A DNA stretch of 64,000 nucleotides, from the NCBI GenBank assembly GCA_003162395.1, contig PMON01000068.1, positions 1,455 to 65,454 of the forward strand, in the 5' to 3' direction. Below the pieces are notes generated by a model, which searched no databases, was not told the DNA's origin, and saw nothing but the letters and a program-made list of their open reading frames with translations. A program made the translations under genes and the position numbers. This stretch comes from Acidimicrobiaceae bacterium (GTDB taxonomy: Bacteria; Actinomycetota; Acidimicrobiia; Acidimicrobiales; RAAP-2). This document shows, in pieces, positions 45,854 to 63,827 of this stretch (the stretch's first letter is position 1; each line of letters starts with the position of its first letter).

Positions 45854-47065
45854 GTGGCGTCGCCACTGGTCCACGTGGTCGGCGTCGCGAGGTCGCCCTT
45901 CGGGAAATTCGGAGGGTCGCTGCGCACGTTGTCGTTGCCCGAGCTCGGCGCCTACGTGGTCGAGCGCGCACTGGAGCGCATCGGCGTGGCGCCCGCCGAT
46001 GTCGACGAGGTGGCGCTCGGGGTCAACTTTCCCGGCAGCGATCGCTCCGTTGCACGCCAGGTGCAGCTGCGCGCCGGGATCCCCGACGACCGACTGGCCT
46101 ACACGGTCGATCGAGCGTGCTGCTCGTCGCTCACGGCGATCAACCTCGCTGCCAAGAGCATCAGGCTCGGCGAGGCCCGCACCGCGGTCGCCGGCGGCGT
46201 GGAGAACCTCAGTCGAGTGCCCTACTTCCTCGAGACCGCACGCTTCGGGCAGCGACTCGGCGACGTCGTCCTCTCCGACCAGCTCGTGGTCGCGTGCCCG
46301 CACTCAGGCGTGGCACGCGCCGTCCAGGCCTCCTTGGAGGCAGCGGCGTACGGCATCGGTCGCGCCGAGCAGGACGAGTGGGCGTGCAGGAGCCAGGAGC
46401 GCTACGCCGAGGCGTACGCGAGCGGGTTTTTCGACGACGAGATCACGACCGTGTCCCTCCACGACGCAGCCGGCCAGCTCGTCGAGCTCGATCGCGATGA
46501 GGTACCGCGACCTGGAACCACGATCACGGCGCTGGCAGAGCTTCCGACAGTGAACGGCAGCAACACGGTCACCGCTGGGAACGCGCCCGACCTGAGCTCG
46601 GGGGCAGCGGTCCTCGTCCTTCGAGGCGGCGAGCTCGACAACGCGCGGTCGCTCGCCTCGATCGTTGGGTGGTCTGCGGCCGCGGGGGACCCCCAGCACA
46701 TCGCCTCGATGCCAGCGGTGGCGGGGCTCCTCGCGCTCAAGCACGCGGGGATCACGCTGGATGAGGTCGACGTCATCGAGATCAACGAGGCATTCGCAGC
46801 CGTCCCCTTGGTCTCGAATCTCGTGCTCGCCGGCGGCGACGCGACCCTCGCCGCAGAGCTGGCGACGCGGACGAACGTGAACGGGGGCGCGATCGCGATC
46901 GGCCACCCGACGGGTGCGACGGCAGCGCGACTCGTGATGACGGCCGTCAACGAGCTTCGCCGCCGCGGGGGCGGCATCGGACTCGTCTGCATCTGCGGGG
47001 GCATTGGCGAGGCTGAGTCCCTGGTCGTCGATGTCCCTGCGCCACGAACTGGGTCGGACACGTGA
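45854..47065 (+). CDS. Thiolase (acetyl-CoA acyltransferase type)
   Basis: A 403-residue degradative thiolase. The acyl-accepting Cys is in TVDRACCSSLTAI near residue 90, the NEAFA motif precedes the C-terminal half, and the activating His and second Cys are in IGHPTGATAARL and VCICGGIGEA. It removes acetyl- or propionyl-CoA from a 3-ketoacyl-CoA. The GTG at 45854 has a GAAGGGA site; the stop overlaps the GTG of the mutase gene. It is the first gene of a four-gene operon. Confidence 0.9.
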   Translation: MASPLVHVVGVARSPFGKFGGSLRTLSLPELGAYVVERALERIGVAPADVDEVALGVNFPGSDRSVARQVQLRAGIPDDRLAYTVDRACCSSLTAINLAAKSIRLGEARTAVAGGVENLSRVPYFLETARFGQRLGDVVLSDQLVVACPHSGVARAVQASLEAAAYGIGRAEQDEWACRSQERYAEAYASGFFDDEITTVSLHDAAGQLVELDRDEVPRPGTTITALAELPTVNGSNTVTAGNAPDLSSGAAVLVLRGGELDNARSLASIVGWSAAAGDPQHIASMPAVAGLLALKHAGITLDEVDVIEINEAFAAVPLVSNLVLAGGDATLAAELATRTNVNGGAIAIGHPTGATAARLVMTAVNELRRRGGGIGLVCICGGIGEAESLVVDVPAPRTGSDT

Positions 47066-48750
47066 TCCGCGACGAGCTCCAGCGCACTGCGGCCCCGACT
47101 CTGGACGAGGCGGTTGACTCGTGGGCGTCGCGGCACGAGGACCGGCTGGGGCCGGGCGACGCGGGCGCGACCACGCTCTCGGGGATCGACGTGAAGGCGC
47201 TGTACACGCCCCTCGACGCGCCCATGACCGATGGCGACTACCTCGACCGCATCGGGTTCCCGGGCGAGGCGCCGTTCACGCGAGGGGTGGCACCGGGGAT
47301 GTACCGAGAGCGCCTATGGGTGATGGGGCAGTACTCCGGGGTCGCGAGCGCGTCGGAGACGAACCGTCGGATCCGGTCGCTGCTCGAGCAGGGCCAACGG
47401 GGCTTCTCGGTCGCACTCGACCTGCCCACGCAGAACGGCCTCGACTCGGACCACCCCCTCGCGGCGGGCGAGGTCGGACGCGTCGGCGTGCCGATCGACA
47501 CCCTGGCGGACATGGAGACGATGCTCGAAGGGATCTCGCTCGACGAGGTCGCCCAGATCCGCACGACGGCAAACGCCATCGGGCCGATCGCGGTCGCGCT
47601 GTTCATCGCTGCCGCCGAGAAGCTCGGCTACCCCCCGGACAGCTTCCGGCTCCTGCTCCAGAACGACGTGCTAAAGGAGTACCTCGCACGTGGGACCTAC
47701 GTCTTCCCGCCCCGCCCCGCACTGCAGTTCGCGGTCGACGTCGTCGAGTACTGCGCGAAGAACCTCCCGACCTGGGAGCCCATCGAGTTCTGTGGCTATC
47801 ACATTCGTGACTCGGGCTCGACGGCGGTACAAGAGGTGGCGATCGCGCTCGCGAACGGCATCGAGTACCTAAACGCCTCGCTGGATCGGGGGCTCGACAT
47901 CGACTCGTTCGCACCGTCGATCTACCTGTTCTTCTCCGCGCACCTCGACGTGTTCGAGGAGGTCGCGAAGTTCCGCGCGGCCAGGCGCATGTGGTACAAG
48001 CTGCTCAAGCTGCGCTTTGGCGCAAAGCGCCCGGAGAGCATGAGCGCGAACATCTTCTGCTACACGCTCGGAAGTCCCCAGACCGCCCAGGAGCCGCTCA
48101 ACAACATCGTGCGGATCGCGTACCAGACGATGGCAGCCGTGCTGGGGGGCGTCCAGACGCTCGCCACGTCGTCCTACGACGAAGCCCTGGGGCTCCCCTC
48201 GGCCGAGGCCGTGCGCATCGCACTTCGTACCCAGCAGATCCTCGCCTTCGAGACGGGCGTGGCGCGGACCGCGGACCCGCTTGGCGGCTCCTACTTCGTC
48301 GAGTCCCTGACCGACGAGTTCGAGTCTGCCGCATGGGCGTACCTCGCACGGATCAAGGAGGAGGGTGGCGCGCTGTGCGCGCTCGAGTCCGGGTGGCTGC
48401 ACCGAGAGCTGGAGACCCAGGCGTACCGGCACCAGCGCGCGGTCGACGCGGGGGAGCACGTCGTCATCGGCGTCAACAAGTTCCAGGCCCAGTCCCCGAG
48501 CTCCACGACGCAACCCCCGACGGCCACTGCGGCGACGGAGCACGAGCAGATCGCTCGTCTCGACGCCGTCAAGCGGTCCCGCAACCCAGAGCAGGTGCGC
48601 CAGGCGCTCGCGACGCTCGACGACGCAGCGGTGGATCGCGACAACACGATTCCTGCGCTGCTCGATGCCGTCCGGGCCTACGCGACCGTGGGCGAGATCT
48701 GCGACGTGCTGGCAGGACGATGGGGGAGAGCCCGTGACCACAATCGGTGA
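47062..48750 (+). CDS. Methylmalonyl-CoA mutase family large subunit
   Basis: A 562-residue TIM-barrel subunit of an adenosylcobalamin acyl-CoA mutase. It lacks the C-terminal B12-binding domain, so a separate small subunit is required; none is in the window. Family blocks include YRERLWVMGQYSGV, GFSVALDLPTQNGLDSDHP, LLQNDVLKEYLARGTYVFPP and GYHIRDSGST. The residue matching Tyr89 of propionibacterial mutase is Tyr91, and that matching Arg207 is Arg210. These hold a free carboxylate in methylmalonyl-CoA; isobutyryl- and 2-hydroxyisobutyryl-CoA mutases differ at both. A dicarboxylyl-CoA substrate is therefore favoured. It starts in the thiolase stop. Confidence 0.88.
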   Translation: MIRDELQRTAAPTLDEAVDSWASRHEDRLGPGDAGATTLSGIDVKALYTPLDAPMTDGDYLDRIGFPGEAPFTRGVAPGMYRERLWVMGQYSGVASASETNRRIRSLLEQGQRGFSVALDLPTQNGLDSDHPLAAGEVGRVGVPIDTLADMETMLEGISLDEVAQIRTTANAIGPIAVALFIAAAEKLGYPPDSFRLLLQNDVLKEYLARGTYVFPPRPALQFAVDVVEYCAKNLPTWEPIEFCGYHIRDSGSTAVQEVAIALANGIEYLNASLDRGLDIDSFAPSIYLFFSAHLDVFEEVAKFRAARRMWYKLLKLRFGAKRPESMSANIFCYTLGSPQTAQEPLNNIVRIAYQTMAAVLGGVQTLATSSYDEALGLPSAEAVRIALRTQQILAFETGVARTADPLGGSYFVESLTDEFESAAWAYLARIKEEGGALCALESGWLHRELETQAYRHQRAVDAGEHVVIGVNKFQAQSPSSTTQPPTATAATEHEQIARLDAVKRSRNPEQVRQALATLDDAAVDRDNTIPALLDAVRAYATVGEICDVLAGRWGRARDHNR

Positions 48751-50303: not shown

Positions 50304-50939
50304 ATGACGCAGGAGGCCTACGTCAGCGATCGACTCCTCTTCTACCCTGGTGCTGGCCTCTCGTCAGCGGAACGCGACCGCCTCGAGCGCTACGACATCT
50401 CGATCGGCGAGCTCACGATCGACCATCTGGTCTACAGCATGAGCCGCCAGATCGAGGCCAACTTCCAGACCTTCTACACCGTCGCCCAGGAAGTCGCGGG
50501 CCAGGAGTCCGCGCTCGCGATCGCCCGCGAGATCGGGCGCCGCTACGGGGGCCAGGGCTACGCGAAGCTGCTGCGAGCCCAGGGCCGCGAGCGACGCGGC
50601 GAGCCGAGGATGATGGCGTTGTACCAGGACCTCGTGCACTCGATCAGGGGGCCAAAGCACGCCGCGGCGCTGTTCGCCGAGTACGACGACACGAGGTGCA
50701 TCGTGCGACGGACCCAGTGCATCTACTTCTCAGATGAGAACCCCGGCAACGGGGTCTACACCGAGGCCTTTGAGGCCGGGTGCTTCGAGGGCTACGTCGC
50801 TGCCGACGACAACCTGCTCGCCGTCGAGGTGCTTCACTGCCGATTCCAGGGGGCAGCGGGCTGCGAACAGCACTGGGTCTTCAAGCCGGCCGACGAGCGC
50901 CTCGGTCCGATGTCCAAGGACGACGCTGGCGTCACCTAG
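50304..50939 (+). CDS. Small protein, possibly ATC-hydrolase/V4R-like
   Basis: A 211-residue protein starting MTQEAYVSDRLLFYP. The helical part (EANFQTFYTVAQEVAGQESALAIAREIGRRYG) and the later region with paired Cys (CFEGYVAADDNLLAVEVLHC, then GAAGCEQHWVF) recall the 2-amino-thiazoline-4-carboxylate hydrolase-like family or V4R-type domains. Neither is certain. Its neighbours are CoA ligases. Its stop shares the palindrome CTAG (50936-50939) with the stop of the convergent ligase gene. Confidence 0.5.
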   Translation: MTQEAYVSDRLLFYPGAGLSSAERDRLERYDISIGELTIDHLVYSMSRQIEANFQTFYTVAQEVAGQESALAIAREIGRRYGGQGYAKLLRAQGRERRGEPRMMALYQDLVHSIRGPKHAAALFAEYDDTRCIVRRTQCIYFSDENPGNGVYTEAFEAGCFEGYVAADDNLLAVEVLHCRFQGAAGCEQHWVFKPADERLGPMSKDDAGVT

Positions 50940-52573
50940 CGACGCGGCGCGGCACCTCGATCGAGCGTGCGGCTCGAGGTGCTCCCGACGAGCTTGTACT
51001 TCTCGACGCGACCACTCGGGGTCTTTGGTAGCTCGTCGAGCTGCTCGAGATACCGCGGGACCATGAACGAGGGCATCCGACGCTCGCAGTACGCGGCGAT
51101 CGCGTCGAGGTCGAGGGCCGCGCCTTCATCGACGGCAACGAGCACGACGCAGAGGTCATCCTCGCCGACCTCGGACGGGCGCGCGAGTGCCGCGACCTCT
51201 GCGATGGACTCGTGCGCCCGGAGGATCTCTTCGACTTCCCACGCCGAGATGTTCTGCCCTCGCCTGCGGATCACGTCCTTGCTCCGGCCTTGGTAGTAGT
51301 AGTAGCCCCGGTCGTCGCGGCGCGCGAGGTCACCGGTGTGCAGCCACAGGTCTTGGAATGCCGCTGTCGTTGCGTCGGGCTTGTTGAGGTAGCCGATCAT
51401 GACGCTGCCGGGTTCGCGGGGGCGAAGCAGGATCTCGCCGACCTCGCCCATCGCGACCTCCCGGCGATTGGTGCCGGCGAGGCGAACCTCCCAGTCGTCG
51501 GACACGCGCCCGCAGGATTCCGGCACGACGGGCTCGCCGAGCCGGTTGTAGATGGCGTTCCCCGCCTCGGTGAGCCCGTAGCTCTCGATCAGCGTGACGC
51601 CGAAGCGCTGCTCGAAGTCGGCGTCGTGCTGCGCGTTGAACATGCATCGCAGGGGATTGTCGCGATCGTCCGCTCGCCGTGGTTCCGTCGCGAGCATCTT
51701 CGGGATGCTGAAGACGCAGTGCGCGACCGTTGCGCGATGTTCCCGCACGTCGTCCCAGAACGCTCGCACGCTGAAGCGATCACGCAGCGCGATGCTTGAG
51801 CCGACGAGCGCCACCGACAGGACGCCGCGCAGCAGGCCCATCGAGTAGAAGAGCGGCAGTGGCGAGTAGAGGACGTCGGACGCGCCGAAGTCGCAGATGA
51901 CGAGCACTTCGACGGCCTTGGTCAGCGCGTGGGCGTTGCTGATCATGATCCCCTTGGAGGGTCCAGTCGTGCCAGACGAGTACACGACGCAGTGCAGGTC
52001 GTGAGGGCTCGCTTCTGTTGGCGACAGATGGGCTGCGACGTCGTCGACCGCGACCGACTGGAGCGACGCAAGGGCGACGACCTCGATCCTCGAGAACCGC
52101 TTCGCCCGGCGCGCAACGTCGACCGCCGCGTCCGGTACGACGATGACTCGGAGGTGCTGGAGTGCGTCCTCTGACGCAGCGAGTGCGTCGAGGAAGGGCT
52201 CATTGGCGACCAGCACCCGGCATGCGGCGTCGTTCAGGACGTACTCCAGCAGGTAGCCGGTGAAGCCTGTGTTGATGAGCACGACGGCCGCACCGCGGAA
52301 GGCGATCCCGAAGTACAGCTCGACGTACTCAATCGAGTTGTCAAGCATGAGCCCGACGAGCTCGGCATGCGCGACGTCGAGTCGCCCCAGGGCCGCTGCG
52401 ATTGCGCGGGCGTGCTCGTCGACCTCCCCGTACGTCGCGACCCGCTGGCCGAACCGCAGGAAGGGGCGATCGGGAGCGGTGGCGGCACGACGCTGCAGCA
52501 CGTCGCGAACGAAGAGTCCCTCGGTGGGGCTCGCGGCTGCGCCTGCGTCCTTGGGTCCGGTGCCAGGTCTCAT
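50936..52573 (-). CDS. Acyl-CoA synthetase (AMP-forming), ligase 3
   Basis: A 545-residue ANL-family ligase. The P-loop is YSSGTTGPSKGIM, the A5-like motif is SYGLTEAGNAIYN, and the hinge is GRSKDVIRRRGQNISAWEVEE. The usual C-terminal catalytic GK reads GR (PKTPSGRVEKYKL), a form found in carnitine-CoA-ligase-like relatives. It starts within the stop of the PrpD gene (ATGA). It is the last gene of a five-gene minus-strand operon. Confidence 0.88.
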   Translation of the reverse strand: MRPGTGPKDAGAAASPTEGLFVRDVLQRRAATAPDRPFLRFGQRVATYGEVDEHARAIAAALGRLDVAHAELVGLMLDNSIEYVELYFGIAFRGAAVVLINTGFTGYLLEYVLNDAACRVLVANEPFLDALAASEDALQHLRVIVVPDAAVDVARRAKRFSRIEVVALASLQSVAVDDVAAHLSPTEASPHDLHCVVYSSGTTGPSKGIMISNAHALTKAVEVLVICDFGASDVLYSPLPLFYSMGLLRGVLSVALVGSSIALRDRFSVRAFWDDVREHRATVAHCVFSIPKMLATEPRRADDRDNPLRCMFNAQHDADFEQRFGVTLIESYGLTEAGNAIYNRLGEPVVPESCGRVSDDWEVRLAGTNRREVAMGEVGEILLRPREPGSVMIGYLNKPDATTAAFQDLWLHTGDLARRDDRGYYYYQGRSKDVIRRRGQNISAWEVEEILRAHESIAEVAALARPSEVGEDDLCVVLVAVDEGAALDLDAIAAYCERRMPSFMVPRYLEQLDELPKTPSGRVEKYKLVGSTSSRTLDRGAAPRR

Positions 52574-53958
52574 CGGACGTGATCCGAGTTGCCCGGGGCG
52601 AGCAAGGACGCGAGCCGGCGGACGTCGTCCAGCTCGTCGAGGTGCAGCACCGCGTCTACCAGCTCGGTGAACTGCTCATCGGCGAGCGTCGGCACGCAGC
52701 ACGTCCTCGCCTTGTCCACTACCTCGGCCACGGTGAGCGGTCGCTCGGGGTATCCCTTCGGTATGTCCACCCTCGTCGAGAGGGTTCGGCCGTCGCCGAG
52801 CTCGACCATGACGGCTGTCGGGAAGTAGGCAAGATTGACGGGCATCGCCTCGTCCACGACGACCTCGATCCGACGCATCAGGCTCAAGAGTGCGGGGTCC
52901 CTTGCTCGCACGTCGAGGTACTGCGCAGGGCCAGCGCGTCCGTCGGCGAGGCAGACCGCGACGCTGTACTCCATGCTGAACTTTCCCTCGACGCCATCCT
53001 GTGTCACGTGGTGCACGAGGATGTTGGGCACCATCTTGTTCACGCGGCACTCGATGTGGCGTACGTCGCGCGCGGCGAAGCCGTGTGACGCCTGCAACTC
53101 GAGGATGGCGTCCTGGGCGGAGTGGATCGCGCCGCAGCACGCGAAGCGCTTGACCGCGATCCCTGACTCAACCAGCTCATAGGGAGCGTCTGGTTGGAAC
53201 GCAGCAAGAACGCCGGGCAACCGGTCGAGGTCCGAGAAGACGCCCAGGAATCCGCTCACACCCTCGAGGACGGAGCGATCCGCCGTAAAGCCCCGCGCCG
53301 CGAGCTCGGCGGACTGGAGCCCGTGAAATGCGGCGTGACCGGCATGGAGAGGCTTCACCATGCTGCCGAAGTTCCTTCGGATGCCCGCGGCGCTGGAGGC
53401 AGCGATCCCGAGCGCGTGACGGGTCATCTCGGCGTCGAGGCCCAGCACCACGCTGGACGCGACGGAAGCGCCGAGCGTCCCGATCGTGCCCGTCGTGTGC
53501 CAGCCCCGCGCGTAGTGCTCCGGATTGAGCTCGCGGCACAGGCGCGCCTGGACCTCGAAGCCCGCGAGATAGCCGTTGAGGAGCGAGGCTCCCGAGACAC
53601 GGTCCGACGCGCCGGCTGCGAGGAGCGCAGGGACGAGGGTCGAGCTCGGGTGAATCATCCGGACCGAGACGTCGTCGAAGTCGAGCACGTGGCCGGATGT
53701 CCCGTTGGCGAGGGCAGCGAGTGCCGGCGACGCACGCTTCGAGGTGCCGAAGATGATCGCGTCACCGCGGCTGGTCTCGCTCGCCCAGTCGGCGACGAGT
53801 CGCGCACCGTCGTCGGTGCTCCCCGCGACGCAGCAGGCGGCGAGGTCCAAGACGGCAAGCTTCATGACCTCGACTGCCTCGGGTGGGAGGGCGTCCTTCG
53901 AGAAGCTGAGTGCCGAGGCCACCAACTGCTCGGTCGCGTCAGCGCTGCGCGTCCTCAT
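52570..53958 (-). CDS. MmgE/PrpD family protein
   Basis: A 462-residue second MmgE/PrpD paralogue. Landmarks are LAVLDLAACCVAGST, HVLDFDDVSVRMIHPSSTLVPALLAAG and GWHTTGTIGTLGASVASSVVLGL. The family dehydrates or decarboxylates tricarboxylic-type acids, but the true substrate here is unknown. The ATG at 53958 overlaps the DUF35 stop; the longer open frame to 54282 reads through the DUF35 gene and is rejected. Keeping two divergent PrpD paralogues in one island suggests two distinct steps. Confidence 0.85.
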   Translation of the reverse strand: MRTRSADATEQLVASALSFSKDALPPEAVEVMKLAVLDLAACCVAGSTDDGARLVADWASETSRGDAIIFGTSKRASPALAALANGTSGHVLDFDDVSVRMIHPSSTLVPALLAAGASDRVSGASLLNGYLAGFEVQARLCRELNPEHYARGWHTTGTIGTLGASVASSVVLGLDAEMTRHALGIAASSAAGIRRNFGSMVKPLHAGHAAFHGLQSAELAARGFTADRSVLEGVSGFLGVFSDLDRLPGVLAAFQPDAPYELVESGIAVKRFACCGAIHSAQDAILELQASHGFAARDVRHIECRVNKMVPNILVHHVTQDGVEGKFSMEYSVAVCLADGRAGPAQYLDVRARDPALLSLMRRIEVVVDEAMPVNLAYFPTAVMVELGDGRTLSTRVDIPKGYPERPLTVAEVVDKARTCCVPTLADEQFTELVDAVLHLDELDDVRRLASLLAPGNSDHVR

Positions 53959-54377
53959 GGTGACGACGCCCCGGGTACGAAGTACACAAGGAAGCGGCCC
54001 GGTGCGATCTCTCGGGGCCATGCCACGACGCGAAGGCCGATCCGTAGGCCGCTCGGATCGATGCCGAGCACGTTGGAGATCATCCGGGGCCCCGAGTCGA
54101 GCTCGACGAGCACGACGTTGTAGGGGACGGCGCCCGAGAATGCCGGGTCGAACGCGCGGTGGTACACGCAGTAGCTCCAGATCGTGCCGACGCCGTCGTC
54201 GGGCATCCACTCGGACTCCGACGCCAGGCACTCTGGGCAGGCGGGTGCTGGCGGATAGCGGCGAAACCCACACGCCGTGCATTGCTGGAAGCGAATCTGG
54301 GGCGTGGCCAGCTCTTCGATGCTCGGCGACGGACCGAGCAGTCGCGCCGCCGCGAGAAGAAGTGCCTCGTCGCTCAT
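53955..54377 (-). CDS. DUF35 OB-fold/zinc-ribbon acyl-CoA binding protein
   Basis: A 140-residue protein. The N-terminal rubredoxin-like zinc ribbon is FQQCTACGFRRYPPAPACPEC and the C-terminal OB-fold is VPYNVVLVELDSGPRMISNVLG. DUF35 proteins bind acyl-CoA and dock on thiolase-like lipid-transfer proteins; in the cholesterol side-chain pathway the DUF35 domain of ChsH2 and the thiolase-like Ltp2 form a retro-aldolase. It lies 37 bp after the adjacent thiolase gene and overlaps the PrpD start, so such a complex is expected here. Confidence 0.87.
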   Translation of the reverse strand: MSDEALLLAAARLLGPSPSIEELATPQIRFQQCTACGFRRYPPAPACPECLASESEWMPDDGVGTIWSYCVYHRAFDPAFSGAVPYNVVLVELDSGPRMISNVLGIDPSGLRIGLRVVAWPREIAPGRFLVYFVPGASSP

Positions 54378-54414
54378 GGACGAATCTCGGTTGCCTCGGA
54401 AAATCGCTCGGCCG

Positions 54415-55551
54415 TCACGAGGGCACCGAGCTCCCGAGTATCGAGGTCGCAGCCTTCTCGAATCCCTTTGTCGAGCAGTACTGCGCGAATGTGGCGTCCG
54501 CCACCTGGCGATCGCCACATTCGCCGCGGAGCTGGCGGACGGCCTCGCAGAGGTGCAGCCACCCCCACATGTAGCTCTCGGACAGCTGGCCCCCGTTTGT
54601 GTTGACGGGGATCTCCCCGCCCAAGCGGATTCGGCCTTCCTGCACGAACGGACCCGACTCCCCGGGGCCACAGAAGCCGAAGAGCTCGAGCATCTGGCAG
54701 ACCCAGACGCTGACCGGATCCTGTATGAACAAGACGTCCACGTCGGCGCGGCTCAGGCCCGCACTGGCGTAGATGGTCGTCATCGCGCTGACCCATGGCC
54801 GCAGGAGGTTGTCGGGATTCTGATACTGGCGCAGACCAGTTGCCTGTTCCATCGCGAGGAGGTAGACGGGCTGTGTCGACGCGGACGCGACGCGGTCTGC
54901 TGAAGTCACGATCAGGCACGCGCCGCCGTCGGAGATCATGCACACGTCCGACCGGCGCAGCGGCGCAACCAGATACGGCTCGGCAAGGTAGTCCTCGATC
55001 GTGAGCGGCGTGCGGAAGATCGCAGCTGGATTGAGCTGTGCGTGGGCGCGCTCGGTGACCGAGACCCAGCCGAGCTGCTCTTGGGTCGTCCCGTACAGAT
55101 GTGCGTGGCGGGCGAACGCGAGCGCTCCTTGTCCGGCAATGTTGTGGAAGCCGTGCAGTCCGAGCGACTCCGCCCCGCTGCCTGCAACTGCGCGGAAGCG
55201 ATTGCCCGCCGACCTCTGATTCGTGCCATAGAGCAGCGCGATCGTCGTCGCCATGCCGCTCGCGATCGCCATTGCCGCCAGGTGCAAGGAGAAGTTGCAC
55301 GTCCCATAGTCGAGGGTGGCGCTGTACCGGGGATTGATCCCCGCCATGCGTCCGATATCAGTGTCGATACCTGAACCGCCAAAGGACTTGCACGTGATGA
55401 GTCCGTCGAGGTCACCCTTTTCGAGCCCGCAGTCCCGAAGCGCGAGGCGCAATGCATCCACGGCGATCTCGTCGGCGGACCTGCCGGGAAGCTCACCCTG
55501 CTCGGTGGAGCCCACGCCGATGACGGCGACCTCACCACGCCGCAGGGTCAT
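54415..55551 (-). CDS. Thiolase-like lipid-transfer protein (possible retro-aldolase)
   Basis: A 378-residue SCP-x/Ltp-type thiolase-fold protein. It has VIGVGSTEQGELPGRSADEIA, a YGTCNFSLHLAAMAIASG region at the usual Cys position, SDGGACLIVTSADRV, and the late IPVNTNGGQLSESYMWGW. The His of the usual NTHGG motif is Asn. Proteins of this group paired with DUF35 cleave beta-hydroxyacyl-CoA by retro-aldol chemistry or act as non-canonical thiolases. The ATG at 55551 is preferred; a TTG at 55581 overlaps the upstream stop. Confidence 0.82.
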   Translation of the reverse strand: MTLRRGEVAVIGVGSTEQGELPGRSADEIAVDALRLALRDCGLEKGDLDGLITCKSFGGSGIDTDIGRMAGINPRYSATLDYGTCNFSLHLAAMAIASGMATTIALLYGTNQRSAGNRFRAVAGSGAESLGLHGFHNIAGQGALAFARHAHLYGTTQEQLGWVSVTERAHAQLNPAAIFRTPLTIEDYLAEPYLVAPLRRSDVCMISDGGACLIVTSADRVASASTQPVYLLAMEQATGLRQYQNPDNLLRPWVSAMTTIYASAGLSRADVDVLFIQDPVSVWVCQMLELFGFCGPGESGPFVQEGRIRLGGEIPVNTNGGQLSESYMWGWLHLCEAVRQLRGECGDRQVADATFAQYCSTKGFEKAATSILGSSVPS

Positions 55552-55570: not shown

Positions 55571-56443
55571 TCAGATGACAAGGAGCGGGTTCACGGGACT
55601 GCCCACCCCCCTCGAGATACGAAGCGGCGCGACGACGAGAAGGCCGCTCTGTACGTGGTCCTCGCCCGGGCGACGCAGGTCCAGCAGCTCGATCATGGTG
55701 ACGCCAAGGTCCCTGACAAGGACCTTGTGGAGAGGCGGCAGCACGCCCCGGCGTCCGGTCGCCTCCACGGCGATGTTGTCGGCGCCGACGATCGCGATGT
55801 CGTGGTCGCCCAGCCACTCGCCCATCGAGGCCGCCACGACAGGGAACCCCCCCTCCGTCGGTGTAGATCGAAGCGCCTCGTCCATCCAGCCGGTCCGGAA
55901 CAGCAGCGCGTCGCCCGGGTTGGGCGACGTGCCACGGTCCGCGAACATCGCATCGACGAGGTCCGCGGTGATCTCCGTCGCATCCTCGCCACGCAGGTGG
56001 GTGAAGTCCAAGAGGTGGGCGCTCGCGACCAGTCCGCCGAGCTTCTCGAGCCCAAGACGACCCGCTCCGCTGCTGCGGACCTCCGTGAAGGGGAAGCCAT
56101 TGTACAGCAAGCCGCCCGACCAGACATGGGCCAACCCGTCGACGTGCGTCGTGCCCTGCGTCGCCAGGACCAGGTAGTCGTCGGCTGTCCCCCAGTCGTG
56201 GCGACCAAGCGCGGCGAAGTCGCCGCCGTCCTGGGTCATGAAATGCAGTGGCGGGATCCGATTGCCCCCCACCGGCGCGTCCCGTCGCAGCTCGATGCCG
56301 AGCTCGTAGACGCGGCCGGAAGTGGGTCGGGCGCACGCAGCGAGCACCGCCTCTGGCGTCAGGAGGTTCGCGGTGCCGCGCTCGTCGTCGTCCCCCCATC
56401 GCCCCCAGTTGGTACCGCGATCACTCGTCACGGTGCAGGGCAC
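55571..56443 (-). CDS. Cyclase-family (kynurenine-formamidase-like) hydrolase
   Basis: A 290-residue protein of the PF04199 cyclase/formamidase fold. The metal site motif is TQGTTHVDGLAHVW (HxGTHxDxxxH variant), and the later ADNIAVE and PLHKVLVRDLGVTMIELLDL match the family. The N-terminal NWGRWGDDDERGTANLL is common to catabolic members. It hydrolyses a cyclic amide, lactone or formamide. The GTG start is uncertain, with another GTG 12 bases later. It is the first gene of the minus-strand operon with thiolase, DUF35, PrpD and ligase 3. Confidence 0.84.
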   Translation of the reverse strand: MPCTVTSDRGTNWGRWGDDDERGTANLLTPEAVLAACARPTSGRVYELGIELRRDAPVGGNRIPPLHFMTQDGGDFAALGRHDWGTADDYLVLATQGTTHVDGLAHVWSGGLLYNGFPFTEVRSSGAGRLGLEKLGGLVASAHLLDFTHLRGEDATEITADLVDAMFADRGTSPNPGDALLFRTGWMDEALRSTPTEGGFPVVAASMGEWLGDHDIAIVGADNIAVEATGRRGVLPPLHKVLVRDLGVTMIELLDLRRPGEDHVQSGLLVVAPLRISRGVGSPVNPLLVI

Positions 56444-62588: not shown

Positions 62589-63827
62589 GTGCCGGAAGCG
62601 CTCGTCGACGCACAGTCCCTCGCCGTCATGTCGCTGGACTGGTTGATGTCGTCAGCGCAGGAAGGTGAGTCAGGGCTGGTCTGGAAGGCGACTCCGTCGG
62701 ACGCCGGGCCCGATGACACGCTGTACAGCGGATCCGCTGGGATCGTGCTCGCGATGCTCGAGGGGTATCACCACGTCGGAGACGAGCGATATGCCATTGC
62801 CGCCGCGCGCGGTGCCTCGACCGTCGCCAGCGCTGTGGGCCATTGGGTCGACTCCTCGCTGTACTTCGGGCTTGCCGGGATGGCGGTCGCGCTGCACGCC
62901 GTTCACGACCAACTTGGAGAGCACTTCGCAGGTGAGGCCGTCAAGCTGGCCGCTGAACAGATCCGCGGTCGGTTTGACGGGGAGCGCTGGGGCGACGACT
63001 TCGAGCTTCTCGCCGGCAATGCGGGCATCGCACTCGGGGCGTTGAGCGTCGAAGACCTTGAACTGGCACTACTCGCGGTGACGCCATATCTGCGCACCGC
63101 GGAGCGCACGGCACACGGCGTCCAATGGGAAGATCGGGCTGGAGAGGCGTCTCGCCTGCATCACATCTCGCACGGGACGCTCGGGATCGTCTCGTCGCTC
63201 GCCGCCGTCGGAGGTGCGTGTGGACAGCCCGAGCTCACCGCGCTTGCACTGGCTGGAGCGGCTGATGTGGTGGCGCGCAACGAGGCGGATGCGACGGGCT
63301 TTCTCGTGCCGCACTCGGACCCGCAGTACCGGCCGGATCTCGTGGAGCGCTTCAGCTATGGATGGTGCCATGGACCGGCGGGGGACGCCCAGGTGTTCCG
63401 TCAGCTCGCGAAGGTGACAGGCGACAGTGGCTGGTCATCGCTTGGTGACCGTTGCTGGAGCACCATCATCGGTTCCGGACTGCCGCAGCAGCTTCGGCCG
63501 GGGTTCTGGGACAACAGTGGGCGGTGTTGCGGGACCGCTGGCGTGCTGGCCCTTGCGTGCGATCGATTCGTCGAGCACGACCAGGACATGGACTTCGCCC
63601 ACGTCCTGGTCGATGATCTCAGATCGCGGGCGACAATCGATGCCGACGGCGCCCGCTGGTCGAACGTCGAGCACCGAGCAACGCCGAGCGCGCTTGAGCC
63701 CGAGGTTGGATGGGCAAGCGGCAATGCCGGAATCGCGCGAGAGCTGCTCCGCTTCGCTCGCATCAAGTCTGGTCAGGAGCCGGCCTATGCCACCACTTGG
63801 CCGGACCAGCCGTCAGCAGTGGGTTGA
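62589..63827 (+). CDS. Stand-alone LanC-like protein
   Basis: A 412-residue alpha/alpha-toroid protein of the lanthionine synthetase C-like family. The repeats are seen as YSGSAGIV, YFGLAGMAV, LLAGNAGIAL, ISHGTLGIVSSL and SGNAGIAREL. Zinc ligands would be Cys260 in GWCHG and Cys313/Cys314 in GRCCGTAG: the usual Cys-His of the last motif is Cys-Cys, like the CCG group of class II enzymes (ProcM type). No precursor peptide, dehydratase or kinase is nearby, so the role may be other than lanthipeptide cyclisation, for example glutathione-adduct formation as in LanCL proteins. GTG start at 62589. Confidence 0.8.
   Translation: MPEALVDAQSLAVMSLDWLMSSAQEGESGLVWKATPSDAGPDDTLYSGSAGIVLAMLEGYHHVGDERYAIAAARGASTVASAVGHWVDSSLYFGLAGMAVALHAVHDQLGEHFAGEAVKLAAEQIRGRFDGERWGDDFELLAGNAGIALGALSVEDLELALLAVTPYLRTAERTAHGVQWEDRAGEASRLHHISHGTLGIVSSLAAVGGACGQPELTALALAGAADVVARNEADATGFLVPHSDPQYRPDLVERFSYGWCHGPAGDAQVFRQLAKVTGDSGWSSLGDRCWSTIIGSGLPQQLRPGFWDNSGRCCGTAGVLALACDRFVEHDQDMDFAHVLVDDLRSRATIDADGARWSNVEHRATPSALEPEVGWASGNAGIARELLRFARIKSGQEPAYATTWPDQPSAVG

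Follow-up and report, generated by a model that had tools for sequence, protein, structure and literature searches.

A DUF35-paired thiolase-like protein with glutamine at the aldolase base position, a candidate carbon-carbon lyase from an Acidimicrobiaceae operon

The gene pair and its operon

We analyzed a gene pair encoding a thiolase-like protein and a DUF35 protein that lies in a stretch of 64,000 nucleotides (here named the window) from an Acidimicrobiaceae bacterium (assembly GCA_003162395.1, contig PMON01000068.1, positions 1,455 to 65,454 of the forward strand). The interval 53955-55551 of the window contained exactly two complete genes, both on the minus strand. These were: a thiolase-like subunit of the lipid-transfer protein type (54415..55551, 378 amino acids) and a DUF35 subunit composed of a zinc ribbon and an oligonucleotide/oligosaccharide-binding (OB) fold (53955..54377, 140 amino acids).

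The pair is part of a minus-strand run of five genes. A PF04199 cyclase/hydrolase (55571..56443; 62.9 bits) comes first, followed by the thiolase-like protein, the DUF35 protein, an MmgE/PrpD protein (52570..53958) with B. subtilis IRG1 (7bra) and IDS-epimerase (2hp0) as nearest solved structures, and an AMP-forming acid-coenzyme A (CoA) ligase recognized by its AMP-binding profile matches (50936..52573). Successive genes are separated by gaps of 19 and 37 bp and then by two 4-bp overlaps, and because of this tight spacing the five genes from the cyclase to the ligase seem to form one operon. An operon of the pair with PrpD and the ligase had been described in the initial annotation; gene coordinates, Pfam matches and spacing agree with it, and the cyclase is to be added.

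The thiolase-like protein matched Thiolase_C_1 (PF22691) with 113.7 bits (cut-off 28), and the DUF35 protein exceeded the cut-offs of both zf-ChsH2 (PF12172) and OB_ChsH2_C (PF01796). The ribbon of the DUF35 protein is of the C4 type (C33-x2-C36-x10-C47-x2-C50; 54228..54281, minus strand), a spacing of the canonical type according to the excerpted text of PMC12329534. Among solved structures, the top two matches of the thiolase-like protein were Ltp2 (6ok1_A, E 2.5e-50) and a putative thiolase (4u4e, 3.3e-50), and the top match of the DUF35 protein was the Ltp2 partner (6ok1_B, E 4.2e-19). The best NCBIfam match of the thiolase-like protein, PRK06158 (acetyl-CoA acetyltransferase), reached 274.8 bits and stayed below the curated cut-off of 421. 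Its structure, modelled as a single chain from an input alignment of 35 rows, was predicted with confidence (predicted local distance difference test, pLDDT, 92.2; predicted template modelling score, pTM, 0.93). The VIA-align Z values of the model were 50.1 for 4u4e, 49.8 for 6ok1_C (32% identity), 48.9 for the archaeal thiolase 6esq_A, 47.8 for the aldolase Sal, 46.9 for 7yvy_A and about 34-35 for classical thiolases. With these values the predicted fold puts the protein in the DUF35/SCP2-type group.

The host genome comprises 2.65 Mb in 81 contigs and is 86.7% complete. Searching all of it with the MaoC profiles PF01575 and PF13452 gave zero matches on the contig of the window (C29) and matches on other contigs, which bears out the earlier remark that no MaoC-type hydratase partner is visible here. 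One further zf-ChsH2 match was present in the genome, on contig C76. Here, a second DUF35 gene and a thiolase-like gene with a VYDAF motif adjoin two MaoC-type genes, followed by an apparent AMP ligase. Because it is the C76 pair that adjoins MaoC genes, the window pair is not the MaoC-linked system of this genome.

The Gln branch: residues, phylogeny and gene surroundings

The relatives of the query come from 44 loci recovered by a genome_contigs scan and from two plasmid loci (46 in total). One partial gene (L073) was left unaligned and a frameshifted one (L068) was included, and the branch counts given below refer to 45 relatives plus the window protein. For residue frequencies inside and outside the branch, 80 proteins were compared, of which 45 belonged to the branch and 35 formed a convenience sample of other relatives, not a census. 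The branch, here named the Gln branch, includes loci from Actinomycetota, Chloroflexota and Pseudomonadota.

The change that marks the branch is located at the position of the aldolase base. According to the excerpted text of PMC12329534, whose Ltp2 residue numbers are used here, Tyr294 in the YDHF motif of Ltp2 is the base and Tyr344 the acid, Sal carries Tyr302 and Cys304 in a YDCY motif, and a Sal Y302F variant showed trace activity only, making the base Tyr essential. In the window protein, neither YDHF nor YDCY was found, and the alignment places Gln277 (codon 54721..54723, minus strand) at the site of Ltp2 Tyr294 and Sal Tyr302. Gln277 was present in 45 of the 46 branch members, with a frameshifted copy as the only exception; outside the branch, Tyr occupied the position in 31 of 35 proteins, His in two (the thiolases) and Gln in another two (a Chloroflexi pair with the motif VQES). 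The base motif reads QDPV in the window protein and QD(P/A) across the branch, with residue 278 being D in 42 members, N in three and a gap in one.

The thiolase Cys has been lost as well. In the HMMER alignment, the motif Cys that we take to be the nucleophile in 7yvy and 7pxp stands opposite Tyr82 (codon 55306..55308, minus strand). With MAFFT this Cys falls into the columns directly after Gly83, so that the equivalence of Tyr82 is uncertain by about two residues. Tyr82-Gly83 was invariant in the branch (46/46), and Tyr82 occurred in 4 of 35 proteins outside. The nearby Cys85 on the nucleophile loop was conserved in 36 of the 46 members only. Since no thiolase-type nucleophile Cys is conserved in the branch under either alignment, thiolysis by these proteins is unlikely as judged from sequence. 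The His of the HDxF motif, which together with the conserved Cys characterizes SCP2-type thiolases including BbsAB, is also missing and corresponds to Gln277.

Of the aldolase acids, the protein has the Ltp2 form only: Tyr327 (codon 54571..54573, minus strand), equivalent to Ltp2 Tyr344, was found in 45 of 46 branch members (gap in the frameshifted copy) and in 14 of 35 outside, and the position of Sal Cys304 is taken by Pro279. A comparison of the active site with that of Ltp2, as proposed earlier, therefore gave by alignment a kept Tyr344 equivalent and a replaced Tyr294. Lys366 was shared by 45 of 46 members, the frameshifted copy again showing a gap. The residues marking the branch (at least 95% inside, below 12% outside) include Cys54, Asp63, Tyr82, Ser88, His90, Arg251, Trp283, Gln286, Trp329 and Lys366. 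Cys359 (codon 54475..54477, minus strand), at the CxG position of the second thiolase Cys, was rejected as a conserved catalytic acid for the branch as it was present in only 33 of 46 members, with a gap in one.

The initial annotation had stressed that the His of the NTHGG motif is replaced by Asn. This replacement is indeed present (NTNGG, residues 317-321; 54589..54603, minus strand). However, the site proved to be uninformative: residue 319 varies within the branch (N 37, S 5, H 2, G 1, gap 1), Asn is also found outside, and the excerpted part of PMC12329534 does not name the His as a catalytic residue. The His to Asn exchange was rejected as the key change, and it is the replacement of the base Tyr by Gln277 that is telling.

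Compared with known systems, the window pair resembles Ltp2-ChsH2 of Thermomonospora curvata (6ok1) in its fold, its C4-ribbon DUF35 partner, the missing nucleophile Cys and Tyr at positions 327 and 82. It differs by QDPV instead of YDHF, NTNGG instead of NTHGG and the absence of a MaoC partner gene. The Sal-Shy aldolase of Comamonas testosteroni (9myr) likewise shares the fold, the DUF35 partner and the missing nucleophile Cys, whereas Gln277 and Pro279 take the places of its Tyr302 and Cys304, the ribbon of Shy is Cys3His1 instead of C4 and the hydratase fusion is absent from the window pair. Fold and DUF35 partner are also common to the BbsAB benzoylsuccinyl-CoA thiolase (7pxp) and the archaeal acetoacetyl-CoA thiolase (6esq), both thiolases by PDB title, but the motif Cys and His of 7pxp are absent from the window protein.

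The excerpted text of PMC9195938 describes IpfDE as a proposed retro-aldolase step of ibuprofen breakdown. From the gene order beside dioxygenase and ligase genes we assigned ipfD and ipfE on plasmid pIBU218 to L083:18640-19827 and L083:18229-18627. As in the window, this thiolase-like gene adjoins genes for DUF35 and a CoA ligase, the protein has Tyr at position 327, and the pathway offers a non-steroid parallel to the window pair. In contrast, IpfD as assigned carries a YDAF motif, is 34% identical and has dioxygenase partners. The same plasmid carries a second pair of a lipid-transfer protein and an OB-fold protein (L083:5939-7503) beside enoyl-CoA hydratase (ECH) and CoA-transferase genes; this lipid-transfer protein has IYDHF and NTHGG motifs and groups with TcLtp2.

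In the IQ-TREE phylogeny the Gln branch formed one group (support 100/99) that was present in all 200 bootstrap trees. Its sister is the Chloroflexi Gln pair (97/92), and the branch nests in a group of 61 rows holding IpfD and TcLtp2 (99/89). CtSal groups elsewhere in the tree, and the two thiolases fall outside the 61-row group.

In each of the 46 branch loci outside the window, tblastn located DUF35 near the thiolase-like gene. A DUF35 partner was called in 41 of 46 loci (window included), the remaining five being without gene call. In total, 33 called partners abut the thiolase-like gene at -8 to +17 bp, 19 of them by a 4-bp overlap; the DUF35 gene is located upstream in L049 and L058. The C4 ribbon spacing was common to 37 of the 41 called partners including that of the window, and the other four look like late-start calls. 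A protein search of 172 genomes of the host family (E 1e-80) returned the window's own gene only (1/172). A DNA pattern matched none of 396 genomes, but it demands Thr at the place of Val280 and so fails on the window gene too, which makes this count uninformative about prevalence. The public annotation of one relative (L023) is 'thiolase family protein'.

Some individual loci deserve mention. In Phytohabitans suffuscus (L068:9971-11103) the gene was recovered in two tblastn pieces, and the called frame breaks before the motif owing to a frameshift or a sequencing error. The Gln-branch proteins of Microbacterium sp. BR1 and M. lacus SDZm4 (L050 and L051) are identical, and the genes around them are similar. 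In the Chloroflexi metagenome-assembled genomes SB0661 and SB0662 (L036 and L038), some 12 kb contain three distinct thiolase-like/DUF35 pairs: a member of the Gln branch, its sister with the VQES motif and a third pair with TYDSF.

The closest relative, L030, encodes in a row cytochrome P450, PrpD, a cyclase (69% identity) preceding the thiolase-like orthologue (70%), PrpD, a TcuA-like flavoprotein (523.6 bits, cut-off 369), DUF35 (47%), PrpD (52%) and a ligase (60%). Here, DUF35 lies 2.9 kb from the thiolase-like gene with two genes in between. Plasmid pDK3 of Rhodococcus sp. DK17 (L026:1-5072) has genes for PrpD, ligase, cyclase, thiolase-like and DUF35 proteins in a row on one strand as well, but its thiolase-like protein is of the Tyr type (38% identity, LYDAF, His at position 327). 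The recurrence of the five-gene set with differing thiolase-like proteins in the window, L030 and pDK3 supports a functional unit.

All counts of neighbouring genes are lower bounds, because the labels rest on BLAST comparison with a small number of annotated representatives and because some of the contigs are short. Within five genes of the pair in 45 loci we found CoA-transferase III in 35, flavin-containing monooxygenase (FMO) and amidohydrolase-2 in 14 each, aldehyde dehydrogenase in 12, P450 in 10, ECH in 9, PrpD and MaoC-like genes in three each and the cyclase in two. Six families were tested for enrichment among genes within four positions (n=332) as compared to genes at least seven positions away in the same loci (n=188). 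DUF35 (43/332 versus 0/188), CoA-transferase III (59/332 versus 7/188, p 9e-7) and amidohydrolase-2 (14/332 versus 1/188, p 0.014) were enriched. Because of the enriched CoA-transferase III, CoA activation is linked to the pair. Baeyer-Villiger-type FMO (17/332 versus 5/188, p 0.26) and ECH (8/332 versus 2/188, p 0.34) were not significant and were rejected as partners of the branch.

Possible function of the pair

The initial annotation had taken the pairing of the two genes as a hint of retro-aldol cleavage, a reading that is partly supported. Pairing alone does not mean retro-aldolase, because DUF35 is likewise the partner of BbsAB, of PhlABC and of the archaeal acetoacetyl-CoA thiolase (excerpted text of PMC12329534). 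However, a non-thiolase, Ltp2-like C-C lyase is still the best reading, because a conserved nucleophile Cys is missing, DUF35 is present in 46 loci and the tree points in the same direction. With about even confidence, we regard the pair as a DUF35-dependent C-C lyase, most likely a beta-hydroxyacyl-CoA retro-aldolase with rearranged acid-base residues.

In such an enzyme the two proteins would form a complex whose substrate is an acid activated with CoA, in the most probable case a beta-hydroxyacyl-CoA. Retro-aldol cleavage would release a carbonyl compound together with a shortened acyl-CoA. The reaction would be akin to those of Ltp2/ChsH2, Sal/Shy and IpfD/IpfE with a different acid-base set, in which Gln277 stands in place of the usual base Tyr and Tyr327 is retained. 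Tyr82 on the old nucleophile loop would be the first residue to consider as a substitute for the base or as a proton shuttle. The hydroxyl group might come, speculatively, from ring opening by the cyclase or from hydration by PrpD rather than from a MaoC hydratase.

Several points weigh against a retro-aldolase. Since the essential base Tyr of Sal is Gln here, the known Ltp2/Sal mechanism cannot be copied. The branch has no associated hydratase that would supply the beta-hydroxy group, with MaoC-like genes in 3 and ECH in 9 of 45 loci within five genes, and aldehyde dehydrogenase, a potential hint at an aldehyde product, was rejected as it showed no enrichment (7/332 near versus 10/188 far). 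The predicted fold has no power to tell aldolase from thiolase because the Z values of 6esq_A (48.9) and 7yvy_A (46.9) are near that of 6ok1_C (49.8). Furthermore, several rows of the tree are long-branched, and the approximately unbiased (AU) test did not reject a tree in which the branch was held with the two thiolases (delta lnL 17.4, p 0.0885). For these last two reasons the kinship of the Gln branch with the aldolases is favoured by the tree, not proven.

The AU result would also suit a true thiolase or acyltransferase using another Cys as nucleophile. The window protein does offer two candidates, Cys85 of the nucleophile loop and the CxG cysteine Cys359, and DUF35 is a partner of real thiolases too (6esq; BbsAB according to the excerpted PMC12329534). 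Yet with 36 and 33 of 46 members neither Cys is needed branch-wide, and with the HDxF His of 7yvy and 7pxp being Gln as well we consider this explanation improbable. An Ltp2-type aldolase acting on steroid CoA esters by the usual mechanism is very improbable: 32% identity and a Z value of 49.8 to 6ok1_C and the kept Tyr344 equivalent speak for it, but the base Tyr is replaced throughout the branch, the contig of the window is without MaoC match, and contig C76 carries a cluster of its own (DUF35/thiolase-like/MaoC/MaoC) in which the motif has Tyr.

A CoA-dependent C-C lyase of another type is to be taken more seriously, although we think it unlikely. Such an enzyme could, for instance, decarboxylate its substrate or cleave a cyclic or beta-diketo acyl-CoA, either hydrolytically or by a retro-Claisen reaction. 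It would fit the lost base Tyr, the absence of a linked hydratase partner and the possible ring-opening enzymes nearby, namely the enriched amidohydrolase-2 and the PF04199 cyclase adjoining the pair in the window and L030. On the other hand, the bootstrap tree places the branch beside proposed or proven retro-aldolases, and among the matches listed none is titled with retro-Claisen, hydrolytic or decarboxylation chemistry.

Going one step further than the retro-aldolase reading, we tentatively propose, with clearly less than even confidence, that the Gln branch may be a third design of DUF35 C-C lyases beside Ltp2 (Tyr/Tyr) and Sal (Tyr/Cys). This design would use Tyr82 and Tyr327 together with Lys366, Arg251 and Gln286, and would receive its hydroxyl via ring opening or PrpD, not MaoC. 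A search over the open-licence literature yielded no paper that we recognized as describing the branch or its PrpD operon. A branch lacking both the thiolase Cys and the aldolase base Tyr points to another route of C-C cutting in a family studied for steroid synthesis, and Tyr-based rules may be insufficient for annotating DUF35 pairs. If shown, the chemistry would be of general use because the branch spans three phyla.

Further genes of the window

On the plus strand, 47062-48750 encodes the large subunit of a B12-type acyl-CoA mutase, nearest to the 2-hydroxyisobutyryl-CoA mutase HcmA (4r3u, 436.6 bits), with QYSG aligned to the QIAG motif of HcmA. A 54% identical mutase adjoins the orthologous operon in L030, where it ends the row on the opposite strand.

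A protein of 211 amino acids (50304-50939, plus strand) gave no Pfam or NCBIfam match at E 0.01 and no convincing match to a solved structure. Over 162 residues it is 69% identical to the product of the gene immediately upstream of the thiolase-like gene in L034. Additionally, a LanC-like protein (PF05147, 113.4 bits) is encoded at 62589-63827 on the plus strand.

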